Source: a virus
Reading direction: 5' to 3' (one strand)
Length of the DNA stretch: 28,379 nt
Virus record (IMG/VR): IMGVR_UViG_3300037468_000615
Span: 1 to 28,379 of that record
Shown piece after piece: positions 2,529 through 28,379 of the stretch. Numbering within the stretch: position 1 is the stretch's first letter; each line of letters starts with the position of its first letter. Both the position numbers and the translations under genes were made by a program. The notes under the pieces were generated by a model. That model saw only the letters and a program-made list of their open reading frames with translations. It was not told the origin of the DNA and searched no databases.

Positions 2529-2561
2529 TTTGGTATATCATCTGTAATTCATTATATTATA
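2529..2561 (+). promoter_or_regulatory. Early promoter, copy 1
   Basis: TTTGG at 2529-2533 and CATTATATTATA at 2550-2561, with starts 21 bases apart, exactly as in the copies at 26383 and 27097. Read as sigma70 it is TTGGTA, 17 bases, TATATT. Read as Bacteroidota it is TTTG, 20 bases, TAnnTT. It precedes the gene at 2627. The 65-base leader is A-rich and lacks the pseudoknot found after the other two copies. Confidence 0.75.
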
Positions 2562-2626: not shown

Positions 2627-2995
2627 ATGGATTCAATTTTTGTAAACCAGTATGGCAGGGAATATGAAGAACTTCTTGCCATCAAAGAAGCAAACAAAGC
2701 ATTACTCAACACCATTGAACAGAAAGAAACCAGTTTGAAGAATCTTGCCAAGAGCATTGAAAAAGGAATGAAGGCGGATTTGGTTTCTGAACTCAAAGGT
2801 GATAGTTGGGTAGCAAGATTGGTCAAGGGTTTGAAGTACAAAGTAATTAGACCAGATTACAAAGAATGCTTCGAAATTGCCAAAGGCAAAGTAAATGGAG
2901 CAACAATGGCAGTCTTAGAAAAGATTGTTGAAGAACACAAAGCAGCCAAAGCAGTTGAAGAAGAGTTGAAGTTTAGCATTGAAAAGGAGAACTAA
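2627..2995 (+). CDS. Hypothetical helical protein, 122 aa
   Basis: First gene after promoter copy 1; ribosome site AAGGAAG. The product is almost entirely predicted helix, with heptad-like stretches (residues 15-50, AIKEANKALLNTIEQKE) and a charged C-terminal helix rich in alanine, glutamate and lysine. No membrane span, cysteine motif or enzyme motif is visible. The stop is followed after two bases by the next ATG, so the genes at 2627, 2998, 3337 and 3476 form one operon. Unrecognised. Confidence 0.78.
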   Translation: MDSIFVNQYGREYEELLAIKEANKALLNTIEQKETSLKNLAKSIEKGMKADLVSELKGDSWVARLVKGLKYKVIRPDYKECFEIAKGKVNGATMAVLEKIVEEHKAAKAVEEELKFSIEKEN

Positions 2996-2997
2996 CA

Positions 2998-3333
2998 ATG
3001 AAGTTACAATCAATTCAAGATTATCGTTCTGATAATCCAAACAATGATGAAATTCTTTTGTTACCTGTTAACAAGGATTCTTTGAAAGATTGGAATCCTT
3101 TACATTGGATTACATTTCCACCTGCTAAAACCTTTAGTGATGAATTAAAGAGATTGGTAAACAAAATTGAAGAATCTCTTGATTTTAGTAAAGGAGATGA
3201 TTGGAGTGTAGATAATAAAATAAAAATTATCATCTATTCTGCTGAAACAGGACAATGGGAAATTTGTTTAGAGTATTTGGAATTTTATAAAAGATTTTTT
3301 GATTATGATTTTGATGAAGAAGAGGAGGATTGA
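2998..3333 (+). CDS. Hypothetical acidic protein, 111 aa
   Basis: Second gene of the promoter-1 operon, with AAAGGAGAACTAACA before the ATG. The protein has a proline and tryptophan-rich middle (KDWNPLHWITFPP), a helix (about 42-58) and a very acidic end (DYDFDEEEEDstop). Aromatic residues cluster near the end (LEYLEFYKRFF). Acidic small early proteins can be DNA mimics or host-protein inhibitors, but nothing specific supports that here. Unrecognised. Confidence 0.75.
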   Translation: MKLQSIQDYRSDNPNNDEILLLPVNKDSLKDWNPLHWITFPPAKTFSDELKRLVNKIEESLDFSKGDDWSVDNKIKIIIYSAETGQWEICLEYLEFYKRFFDYDFDEEEED

Positions 3334-3336
3334 AAG

Positions 3337-3474
3337 ATGAATATAATTTTAATTGGTTCTATTGTGGTTGGAATAACCATTGGAATAATATGGGTTTCAT
3401 CGATTGCCATAGCATACAACTTATCAATGATAAGATTGTATTTGAAAGAGATAATTGAAAGAAAGGAGAACTAA
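3337..3474 (+). CDS. 45-aa single-span membrane protein
   Basis: The ATG lies three bases after the previous stop and GAGGAGG overlaps the end of that gene. The product has one hydrophobic span with glycine spacing (residues 2-27, IGSIVVGITIGIIWVSS) and a short charged helix at the C-terminus. This is the third tiny membrane protein of the rightward half. Function unknown. Confidence 0.68.
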   Translation: MNIILIGSIVVGITIGIIWVSSIAIAYNLSMIRLYLKEIIERKEN

Positions 3475-3475
3475 G

Positions 3476-3952
3476 ATGAGAAAAGGAACACATCATACAA
3501 TTGAAACAAAAGAAAGAATGAAAAAACAAAGCAAGAAAAAGGGTAAAACATATTCAAACAAACCCCTTATAAGCTTTCCCGTAAAAGTAAAGAAAGATAT
3601 AAGAATAAAAATGTCTGAGAAAGCATTCTCTTTGCTAAAACATGATATAATATTATTTGAAGAATTTAAAACTTGTTATGGAGAATTTCGCGGTATAATA
3701 CATAAACAACTTCCTAATCCAAAAAACCCAATTTTCTTTGATATAGATGGAAATCCTTTTCTTTATAAAAGAATATATGATCCTGATTTTATGTGTGAGA
3801 GAATAGCAGGAGATAAAGGGTGTTATTTAATGACAGAAATAAAATATAAAATTGATGAAGCTTTTATTGTTTCAGATAGAATTGAGTGGGATAGATTATT
3901 AAAAGAATCTAAGAGTGAAAAATGCTATGAAAAAAACTTTCTTGAATTATAA
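3476..3952 (+). CDS. Hypothetical protein with NUMOD3-like basic N-terminus, 158 aa
   Basis: The start is the ATG at 3476 (AAAGGAGAACTAAG upstream), not an in-frame TTG at 3455 inside the previous gene. Residues 1-30 are very basic and read HHTIETKERMKKQSKKKGK, similar to the NUMOD3 DNA-binding motif of homing endonucleases (h-S/T-x-E-T...KGK). The rest (40-158) is mixed and contains IFFDIDGNPF and two cysteines; no GIY-YIG or HNH catalytic motif is seen. It may be a DNA-binding protein or the remains of a nuclease. Last gene of the rightward half. Confidence 0.7.
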   Translation: MRKGTHHTIETKERMKKQSKKKGKTYSNKPLISFPVKVKKDIRIKMSEKAFSLLKHDIILFEEFKTCYGEFRGIIHKQLPNPKNPIFFDIDGNPFLYKRIYDPDFMCERIAGDKGCYLMTEIKYKIDEAFIVSDRIEWDRLLKESKSEKCYEKNFLEL

Positions 3953-4158: not shown

Positions 4159-4192
4159 AAACTCCCAAATGAATCAAATCAAATGGGAGTTT
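4159..4192. terminator. Bidirectional intrinsic terminator
   Basis: AAACTCCCA (4159-4167) pairs with TGGGAGTTT (4184-4192), a 9-bp stem with a 16-base loop. A T-rich run (TTCTTTTT) follows on the + strand and an A-run precedes it, so it works as a terminator in both directions. It sits between convergent rightward and leftward genes, the expected place. Confidence 0.85.
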
Positions 4193-4234
4193 CTTTTTAG
4201 GAGAAGAAATGAAAGAACATCCTATCAATGATAG

Positions 4235-26382: not shown

Positions 26383-26415
26383 TTTGGATTTTTCGAATAA
26401 ATCCATTATATTATA
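26383..26415 (+). promoter_or_regulatory. Early promoter, copy 2
   Basis: TTTGG at 26383-26387 and CATTATATTATA at 26404-26415, the same spacing as copies 1 and 3. The -35 is TTGGAT and the -10 TATATT with 17 bases between. Transcription would start near 26419, so the RNA begins about ten bases before the first strand of the pseudoknot leader and then reads the GIY-YIG gene. Confidence 0.78.
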
Positions 26416-26429
26416 TACAAGGATGAATG

Positions 26430-26498
26430 GTGCGACAGAATTATAGATTATATACCATTCTGAAACCTTAAAGTCGCACTTAAGGGAGTAGGAATGGT
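26430..26498 (+). ncRNA. Pseudoknotted RNA leader, copy 1
   Basis: Three helices fit together. B: CCTTAA (26466-26471) with TTAAGG (26480-26485), loop AGTCGCAC. C encloses B: ACCATTC (26454-26460) with GAATGGT (26492-26498). A: GTGCGAC (26430-26436) with GTCGCAC in the loop of B, making a pseudoknot. T-rich sequence follows C directly, then GGAG (26508-26511) and the ATG at 26517. A second GAATGGT at 26425-26431 could compete for ACCATTC, giving an alternative fold that excludes A. The same architecture recurs at 27166 with different bases, so structure rather than sequence is conserved. Termination or translation control of the nuclease gene is inferred. Confidence 0.8.
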
Positions 26499-26516
26499 TT
26501 TTTATTTGGAGTATAT

Positions 26517-27089
26517 ATGCCAAAGGGAATATATGTAAGAACTGAACAAATGAAAGAGAATCCCAGAAAAACTTGGGAAGAAAAATTTGGTAAAGAAAAA
26601 GCTGAACAAATGAAGGAGAAAGCAAAAATTAACTTAGAAAAAAGAAGAAATAGAGGTGAATTTTGGGGGCACCCTAAAGGATCTAAACGTTCACCCGAAG
26701 AACTTGAAAAACACTCAAAATCAATGATGGATAAAAATCGTATTCCTTGTTCACCAGAAAAAGCAGAAAAAATACGAATTGCTAAAACAGGCAAACAATA
26801 TAAAAAACATAAAATTTTATTTGTTTACAAATTATGGTTTGATAATGATTCAGAAAAAAGAAGATATTGGGGTTGTTGTTATTCAATTAGAAGAAGATTA
26901 ACTTTTCACAGAAATACATTATTAAAAGGAACTTCACCACATTTAAATCTACAACTTGCTGCTAATAAATTTGGAACTGTAAATTTACAATATGCTATAG
27001 TTGCCAAAGATGAAAGAGATTATTGTTTGAATATGGAGAAACAATTAATCAAATGGGATTCAACTTGTTATAATATGCAAGGCAAATAA
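26517..27089 (+). CDS. GIY-YIG homing-type endonuclease
   Basis: 190 aa. The N-terminal 95 residues are very basic and hold NUMOD3-like repeats (KRSPEELEKHSKSMM and PCSPEKAEKIRIAKTGK). The C-terminal domain (about 100-190) follows the GIY-YIG fold: FVYKL (Y104) for the GIY strand, RRYWG (Y117) for YIG, RRRLTFHR with the arginine and H131, LNLQLAANKFG, the acidic NMEKQL with E174, and CYNM with N186. The order is opposite to I-TevI, where the nuclease comes first. The gene is free-standing, not inside a split gene, and has its own promoter and leader, which duplicate those of the next gene. GGAG precedes the ATG. Confidence 0.85.
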   Translation: MPKGIYVRTEQMKENPRKTWEEKFGKEKAEQMKEKAKINLEKRRNRGEFWGHPKGSKRSPEELEKHSKSMMDKNRIPCSPEKAEKIRIAKTGKQYKKHKILFVYKLWFDNDSEKRRYWGCCYSIRRRLTFHRNTLLKGTSPHLNLQLAANKFGTVNLQYAIVAKDERDYCLNMEKQLIKWDSTCYNMQGK

Positions 27090-27096
27090 TGAAAAT

Positions 27097-27129
27097 TTTG
27101 GATTTCTGTAAAAAGTTCATTATATTATA
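27097..27129 (+). promoter_or_regulatory. Early promoter, copy 3
   Basis: TTTGG at 27097-27101 and CATTATATTATA at 27118-27129, with the same spacing as the other two. It begins 7 bases after the stop of the endonuclease gene and serves the operon that holds the 112-aa gene and the initiator candidate. Confidence 0.78.
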
Positions 27130-27165
27130 AGTATAGATGTTATTTGCAAGTAAAGAAGTGAAACA

Positions 27166-27233
27166 GAGCGACAACATTTAGATTTGTAAATGCCTGCCAA
27201 AGATTGAGTCGCTCCAATCCGAGGTGGGCATTT
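27166..27233 (+). ncRNA. Pseudoknotted RNA leader, copy 2
   Basis: Same architecture as copy 1. B: GATTG (27202-27206) with CAATC (27215-27219), loop AGTCGCTC. C: AAATGCCTGCC (27188-27198) with GGTGGGCATTT (27223-27233), 11 pairs with two G-U. A: GAGCGAC (27166-27172) with GTCGCTC in the loop of B. Compared with copy 1, helix A has one swapped pair (T-A to A-T) and helices B and C have changed in sequence but still pair. CATTTA (27175-27180) with TAAATG (27187-27192) is an alternative that would block C. GGAGG (27241-27245) and the ATG at 27251 follow. Confidence 0.82.
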
Positions 27234-27250
27234 CTATTTCGGAGGAAAGA

Positions 27251-27589
27251 ATGGATTTAATTGAAAAATTAAGACAAAGAGCTGAAGCATTAAAACAAAA
27301 AAACAGTAATGGAGAAATTAAACTTGCTTCAGAAAAACAAATCAATTTATTAAATGATCTAACAGGAGTAGATTTTACCAATGAAGAAGTTCCTCTTACA
27401 AGAAGTAAAGCTTGGTCAATGATAAGTGCAATTATGAATGATAAAATTTCTGAGAAAGAAAAGATAGAGATTATTAAAAGACAAGCTTCTTTGATTTCTT
27501 CGTTGAAAGTTATTATTCTTGAGCAGAAGTATGTTATAAAAGAGTATGAAGAATATCTTTTGAAACAAGTTGGAGAGAAAGATGAATAA
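27251..27589 (+). CDS. Hypothetical early protein, 112 aa
   Basis: The start is the ATG at 27251 with GGAGGAAAGA upstream. An in-frame GTG at 27224 lies inside helix C of the leader and is rejected. The product is helical and charged. It contains ASEKQINLLNDLTG followed by PLTRSKAWSMISAIM, a pattern (S/T-x-KQ-x3-L-x-x-L ... A-x2-x-I) often seen at the ends of phage DNA-metabolism proteins. First gene of the operon with the initiator candidate, whose start overlaps its stop by eight bases. Function unknown; a partner of the replication protein is a fair guess. Confidence 0.75.
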   Translation: MDLIEKLRQRAEALKQKNSNGEIKLASEKQINLLNDLTGVDFTNEEVPLTRSKAWSMISAIMNDKISEKEKIEIIKRQASLISSLKVIILEQKYVIKEYEEYLLKQVGEKDE

Positions 27590-28379
27590 TGATCCCATTG
27601 ATAAAGCACTTAATAATTTTGCTGTTCATAAAAGTAATCCTTATTCTCTTGATGCAGGTGCTTCTTATAAACTTTATATACGACCTTATGATAATTTCAA
27701 AGAGATAGAAGATAAACTTGGTTATGATATGAGTAGTGAAGGATTACCTTTTATGTACTTTGCTAAAACAAATATATATCGTTATTTTTACATTCCAGCT
27801 CATTTAACAGAAAAGTATAAAATATTAGATAAAAATGTAAAACGTTACTGGGAGAAATATCCAAAATATTTTTTAATAACTTTGACAGAAAGAAATTGGA
27901 AAACATTGCTTGATGTTCTAAATGATACTACTATTAAAAAAGTGTTCAAAGAAAGAGGAATAATTTTACATTTGACAGTAATACAATGGAAAGATAGTCA
28001 AAAGATATGGAATATTGATAAGATAGTTATACCAAGGAACATCAAAATAACTTCAGAATTAACCCTTGAGTTAAAAAAACTTTCCATTTTTCCTTATTTG
28101 CAAAAAGAAATTGAAAATATGTCAAACGATAAAGTAAAATTAAAAATGAATGAATTTTTAATATTAAACAAACACAATAGTTACAACGAAAACATACCAA
28201 GCGATATACCAAGTAACATACCAAGTAACATACCAAGTAACATACCAATTACTCTTGGTATCCCTCTTGGAAAAAATACCAAGAGCAATATTAATATGAA
28301 TATTAAAGAGGATTTGAATATTAAAAAGGATTTGAATATTAAAGAGGATTTGAATATTAAAGAGGATTTGAATATTAAA
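27582..28379 (+). CDS. Candidate replication initiator (5' part; continues at base 2)
   Basis: The frame is open from the ATG at 27582 (GGAGAG upstream) to the window end and continues at base 2, for 353 aa in all. Residues 1-195 form an unrecognised mixed alpha-beta domain (SYKLYIRPYDNF, NIYRYFYIPAHL, LHLTVIQW). Residues 204-222 are IPSN/IPSD repeats encoded by ATACCAAGTAAC units; residues 240-287 are NIK(E/K)DL repeats; 288-353 are a basic tail. In lambda O, origin iterons lie inside the gene between a DNA-binding N-domain and a C-domain that meets the helicase loader, then an AT-rich stretch. The layout here is the same, but no sequence homology with O is visible. Confidence 0.8.
   Translation, partial: MNNDPIDKALNNFAVHKSNPYSLDAGASYKLYIRPYDNFKEIEDKLGYDMSSEGLPFMYFAKTNIYRYFYIPAHLTEKYKILDKNVKRYWEKYPKYFLITLTERNWKTLLDVLNDTTIKKVFKERGIILHLTVIQWKDSQKIWNIDKIVIPRNIKITSELTLELKKLSIFPYLQKEIENMSNDKVKLKMNEFLILNKHNSYNENIPSDIPSNIPSNIPSNIPITLGIPLGKNTKSNINMNIKEDLNIKKDLNIKEDLNIKEDLNIK
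28194..28283 (+). repeat. Iteron-like ATACCAAG array (putative origin)
   Basis: ATACCAA starts at 28194, 28206, 28218, 28230 and 28242, a strict 12-bp period (unit ATACCAAGTAAC). One inverted box CTTGGTAT lies at 28254-28261 and a further direct ATACCAAG at 28276-28283; together these last two also make a CTCTTGGTAT/ATACCAAGAG dyad. Five direct boxes on nearly the same face of the helix followed by the AT-rich 18-bp array look like iterons plus an unwinding element. Part of this lies in the duplicated terminal stretch. Confidence 0.65.

Follow-up and report, generated by a model that had tools for sequence, protein, structure and literature searches.

Two diverged copies of a putative pseudoknot leader with compensatory changes in a tailed phage genome

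Introduction

Two neighbouring genes on the plus strand of the window, that is, the whole stretch of 28,379 nucleotides of viral DNA analysed here, are each preceded by a leader which appears able to fold into the same pseudoknot, although much of the sequence differs between them (Table 1). What is this RNA, and why should one small genome carry it twice?

The genome and its transcriptional arms

The first 127 bases of the window are repeated exactly as its last 127 (1–127 and 28253–28379), and because of this terminal overlap we regard the sequence as circularly closed, with a length of 28,252 bp, and as a complete phage genome with a G+C content of approximately 30%. Genes for terminase, portal, scaffold and tape measure proteins occupy a minus-strand arm running from ca. 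26119 down to 4235, while the plus-strand arm, from ca. 26419 across the circle join to 3952, is composed of small genes. This is a tailed phage, and both leaders are located on early messages. Searches of IMG/VR revealed no protein relatives of the 112-aa protein, the endonuclease-like protein, the terminase, the capsid candidate or the portal. Among the matches listed from GenBank phages the terminase relatives share at most 29% identity, and nothing was found there for the other proteins tried. As judged by these comparisons, the phage is without close kin in the collections searched.

Architecture of the leaders

The leaders are found at 26430–26498 (copy 1) and 27166–27233 (copy 2), their starts 736 bases apart, and all strands lie where the initial annotation had placed them. 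Both display the same order: a 7-nt strand (A), a linker of 15–17 nt which is A/U-rich, an outer helix (C), and within it a hairpin (B) with an 8-nt loop. The first base of the loop is an unpaired A, and the other seven pair with the upstream strand A in both copies, as had been proposed. Helix C also pairs in both, but its length in copy 2 had been misjudged, since it comprises 11 bp including two wobbles.

Table 1. Positions of the leader elements, promoters and downstream genes in the window
Feature	Position	Strand	Remarks
Promoter P1, TTGGAT-N17-TATATT	26384–26412	+	Promoter and transcript start (~26419) predicted
Copy 1 extra G-U pair on strand A	26429	+	
Copy 1 strand A, 5' GTGCGAC	26430–26436	+	Pairs with 26473–26479, GTCGCAC
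Copy 1 linker, 17 nt, with ATTATAGATT	26437–26453	+	Core common with copy 2: ATT(A)TAGATT
Copy 1 helix C, 5' arm ACCATTCT	26454–26461	+	Pairs with 26491–26498
Copy 1 hairpin B, CCTTAA/TTAAGG	26466–26485 (26466–26471/26480–26485)	+	Loop AGTCGCAC, 26472–26479
Copy 1 helix C, 3' arm GGAATGGT	26491–26498	+	C = ACCATTC(T)/(G)GAATGGT
Gene 1 Shine-Dalgarno, GGAG	26508–26511	+	9 nt outside helix C
Gene 1, 190 aa, GIY-YIG homing-endonuclease-like	26517–27089	+	phrog_5123, E 5.5e-4, weak match
Promoter P2, TTGGAT-N17-TATATT	27098–27126	+	Promoter and transcript start (~27133) predicted
Copy 2 strand A, 5' GAGCGAC	27166–27172	+	Pairs with 27208–27214, GTCGCTC
Copy 2 linker, 15 nt, with ATTTAGATT	27173–27187	+	
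Copy 2 helix C, 5' arm AAATGCCTGCC	27188–27198	+	Pairs with 27223–27233
Copy 2 hairpin B, GATTG/CAATC	27202–27219 (27202–27206/27215–27219)	+	Loop AGTCGCTC, 27207–27214
Copy 2 helix C, 3' arm GGTGGGCATTT	27223–27233	+	
Gene 2 Shine-Dalgarno, GGAGG	27241–27245	+	7 nt outside helix C
Gene 2, 112 aa, no known family	27251–27589	+	First gene of leader 2 operon
Gene 3, 353 aa in full, candidate replication initiator	27582–28379, across circle join to 391	+	
Promoter P3, TTGGTA-N17-TATATT	2530–2558		Heads unit 2627–3952

Kissing loops have their 3' part stacked upon the stem, while on the 5' side few or no bases are needed to close the gap. With its single unpaired A and seven paired bases running straight into B, we infer that the loop adopts this arrangement. 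The linker would have to run back along A, B and C, ca. 25 stacked pairs, a distance which an extended strand could reach.

The sequence kept between the copies comprises strand A, the loop, the linker core and a purine-rich internal loop, the 5' side of which ends in AAA and the 3' side of which starts with (C)GAG. Helices B and C are almost wholly different. On the basis of their sequences we would regard the two leaders as paralogues of a single element acting in cis on its mRNA, a putative kissing-type pseudoknot situated directly upstream of the ribosome site.

Compensatory changes and chance expectation

The compensatory changes described in the initial annotation were borne out. Counted by script in the structural register, the 20 aligned pairs of this sample of two sequences from one genome include 10 which are identical and 10 which are changed on both sides, with none changed on one side and none broken. 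(MAFFT alignments of the two leaders are one base out of register at the loop.) Because of this compensatory change we recognize a selected, structured leader in two diverged copies; we have very little doubt that the structure is selected as RNA, and the leader is almost certainly a working control element.

In a sequence-blind scan of the whole genome on both strands (A of at least 7, B of at least 5 and C of at least 7 pairs) the two leaders were the only sites with this architecture, against a mean of 0.19 sites per strand in dinucleotide shuffles. A single site is unimpressive by that standard; a pair which agrees in loop, gene position and promoter does impress. Of the five occurrences of the strand motif GCGAC/GTCGC in the genome, four are the A strands. 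One might still suppose that the leader was duplicated along with its promoter and that in an A/T-rich genome the pairings arose by chance, and both the clear relationship of the two promoters and the shuffle mean are in keeping with such a relic. It should, however, contain broken and one-sided pairs, which account for 0 of the 20, and when strand A and the loop were held and the flanks shuffled, B and C together reached at least their observed length in only 0.097% of trials for copy 1 and 0.001% for copy 2 (frequencies of 0.001 and 0.00001). Chance or relic is thus a highly improbable explanation.

Promoters and spacing

The predicted promoters P1 and P2 are part of a common promoter-like 38-base repeat which is 82% identical between them. 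The box CATTATATTATA is found at three sites in the genome, the third of them at 2550, in P3. No pseudoknot leader of this kind lies downstream of P3, and the element is therefore specific to two units. The -10 box and strand A are separated by 17 nt in copy 1 and by 39 nt in copy 2, which puts the leaders ca. 10 and ca. 33 nt from the predicted 5' ends of their transcripts, whereas helix C is followed by the ATG after 18 and 17 nt, respectively. Since the 3' spacing is fixed and that on the promoter side is free, it is the start codon, and not the promoter, to which the leader is anchored, and this favours a translational operator over a promoter-linked antiterminator.

The latter merits consideration because of the precedent in HK022, whose putL and putR sites specify RNAs of ca. 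70 nt, each with two tandem stem-loops, putR lying ca. 270 nt from its promoter; no protein factor is required for put RNA to suppress pausing and termination (PMC9378689). Here too there are two related elements of ca. 70 nt per phage near early promoters, diverged from each other and each just downstream of its promoter, as are putL and putR (PMC9378689), and they might by analogy fold behind the RNA polymerase and cause readthrough of terminators in the early arm. But put is not this pseudoknot of A, B and C tied to a start codon, and the scan detected no clear plus-strand intrinsic terminator in the parts of the early arm which it covered, so that antitermination would meet no evident need. 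We consider this reading unlikely. As to helix C of copy 1, we rejected it as a terminator in its own right: its U-run is absent from copy 2, and the terminator scan did not list it.

Accessibility of the ribosome site

Both leaders had also been said to carry an upstream strand able to trap the 5' half of helix C. Copy 1 does possess a rival helix of 7 bp (shuffle p 0.04), but that of copy 2 is at chance level (p 0.55) and in another place, and a switch based on a trap strand was rejected for this reason. The Shine-Dalgarno (SD) sequence belongs to none of the helices A, B and C, and in the predicted ensembles most of it is unpaired. With the coding sequence included, the predicted accessibility of its bases is much alike in the free and the pseudoknotted ensembles of each copy, and a switch hiding the ribosome site in both copies was likewise rejected. 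The SD is predicted to be hidden in one case only, when A but not C has formed in copy 2. Because the trap strand is unshared and the SD accessibility is alike, a shared conformational switch is unsupported; of the selected RNA switch or protein-binding leader seen in the initial annotation, the selected leader stands on its compensatory changes and the switch does not, while a protein-binding leader would still be the best reading. A domain folded in advance next to the ribosome site, and recognized there by some factor, would fit better.

Without any factor, a structure located 17–18 nt ahead of the AUG might also stabilize the message or promote its translation. Such a compact fold might block decay which depends on the 5' end, or keep the ribosome site clear, with no dedicated binder, and it is consistent with this that the leaders lie near the predicted 5' ends (ca. 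10 and 33 nt) and that the SD is predicted to be mostly free in the pseudoknotted state. For such purposes, however, a simple hairpin would suffice, and the conservation of A, the loop, the linker core and the internal loop while B and C vary would go unexplained. A stabilizer or enhancer of this type seems to us rather unlikely.

Searches for the element elsewhere

No Rfam family matched the window at gathering threshold, and neither leader matched any family of Rfam 15, riboswitches, ribozymes and leaders included, at E≤10; the initial annotation, too, had matched the element to no riboswitch class that it knew. Comparison of the leader DNA with phages yielded chance-level matches only. Motif scans based on the strands GCGACA...AGTCGC covered IMG/VR, with three patterns, as well as the genomes of bacteria and archaea, and the fold was absent from the approximately 250 matches listed from the viral and bacterial collections. 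Their best structural score was 13, with another spacing, compared with 17 and 18 for the two leaders. Since these matches lack the fold, the shared strands alone do not bring it about. No second genome with the element was present among the matches listed from these exact-motif scans, which are blind to other A sequences.

These results bear upon the possibility that the leader is a riboswitch of a class not yet described, a small-molecule ligand being enclosed by the pseudoknot and its presence reported through the geometry of C and the SD. Riboswitches, too, typically have a core of conserved sequence set in a variable framework next to the ribosome site. Against this, no Rfam class was matched at E≤10, no expression platform is shared (the trap being at chance in copy 2 and the SD accessibility alike), there is no metabolic gene downstream, and bacterial genomes are without the element at the motif level among the matches listed. 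A riboswitch is in our opinion improbable.

The genes downstream of the leaders

The assignment of gene 1 to the GIY-YIG homing endonucleases found no support in Pfam, NCBIfam or PDB. The part encoding its N-terminal half contains degenerate direct repeats (26537–26643; 60-base period, 70%), as in the NUMOD-type DNA-binding repeats of homing endonucleases. Structure models of both proteins encoded directly downstream of the leaders were either too poor or matched nothing.

Comparison with known leaders

In phages T4 and RB69 the mRNA leader of gene 32 carries its operator, a pseudoknot, at the 5' end, ahead of the SD (PMC535899, PMC3014915). This operator consists of ca. 28 nt followed by more than 40 nt containing UUAAA/UAAA repeats which are bound by the single-strand-binding protein (PMC535899, PMC3014915). 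Here as there a pseudoknot is located in the mRNA leader 5' of the SD, and its fold is kept while the sequence diverges, in that case between phages; gene 32 is moreover a replication gene, and its GIY-YIG endonuclease neighbour segG, directly upstream, has a counterpart here in the endonuclease-like gene 1. In contrast, the present element measures ca. 70 nt, has three helices and occurs in two copies per genome, there are no UUAAA/UAAA repeats in the 17–18 nt between helix C and the ATG, and neither gene 1, which is endonuclease-like, nor gene 2, without a family match, is recognizable as coding for a single-strand-binding protein.

Leaders of T4-like homing endonuclease genes (I-TevI, segB and mobE) are plain hairpins which mostly hide the ribosome site, while in seg43(25) of Aeromonas phage 25 a stable hairpin directly precedes the ribosome site and leaves it exposed (PMC2988022). 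These resemble the present case in that a phage endonuclease gene has structured RNA around its ribosome site, with seg43(25) the nearest; they differ in that ours is a pseudoknot and is common to a gene which is not an endonuclease, and, unlike most of them, it has an SD predicted to be largely unpaired.

A loop pairing with a distant strand of the leader in the mRNA of a replication gene also calls to mind repZ. In the repZ leader of IncI-type plasmids the strand bound by the hairpin loop lies downstream, and an antisense RNA acts as a competitor for this pairing. In our leaders, unlike repZ, the partner of the loop lies upstream, and we see no antisense promoter which the two copies share. 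An antisense RNA shared by the two copies was rejected, promoter-like matches being no more frequent than in shuffled sequence.

A possible role in translation

Sequence which is kept inside a freely changing scaffold points to recognition by a factor, and as the predicted SD accessibility is much alike in the two states, repression would have to come from a bound factor. We would give an even chance to the reading that the leader is a translational operator for one RNA-binding factor. In such a mechanism helices A, B and C, the linker and the internal loop would form one compact domain, and a factor, coded by phage or host, would recognize the conserved A helix, loop, linker and internal loop. 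Once occupied, the operator beside the SD would control translation of the homing-endonuclease-like gene, and the same factor would jointly control the operon of the 112-aa protein and the candidate replication initiator.

More tentatively, this may be a class of translational operator hitherto undescribed in phages: a kissing-type pseudoknot of three helices through which a single RNA-binding regulator co-controls a homing endonuclease and a replication operon, the selfish gene having captured or donated the operator. According to a 2010 review the gene 32 pseudoknot of T4-type phages may be the sole viral example in translational autoregulation (PMC3014915). A second, unrelated pseudoknot leader, present twice in one small genome, would offer a clean natural experiment, one fold in two sequences, for finding its binder, and if the proposal is true it would show a homing endonuclease gene sharing control with its resident genome.

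Repeats and hairpins elsewhere in the genome

The coding sequence of gene 3 contains tandem repeats of 12 bp (AACATACCAAGT) and 18 bp (TGAATATTAAAGAGGATT) at 28191–28379 and 1–192, which suggests that these may be iterons of a replication origin lying inside the initiator gene, as in lambda O. The intergenic region between gene 3 and the next genes (400–560) displays a row of short perfect hairpins: ACTCC/GGAGT, AGTAC/GTACT, TTTCCTG/CAGGAAA and GATTGGAT/ATCCAATC. Where the two arms converge (4165–4197) there is an inverted repeat, CTCCCAAATG..CAAATGGGAG, followed by TTTCTTTTT. This is a likely terminator, absent from a simple scan on account of a loop over the limit or imperfect arms.
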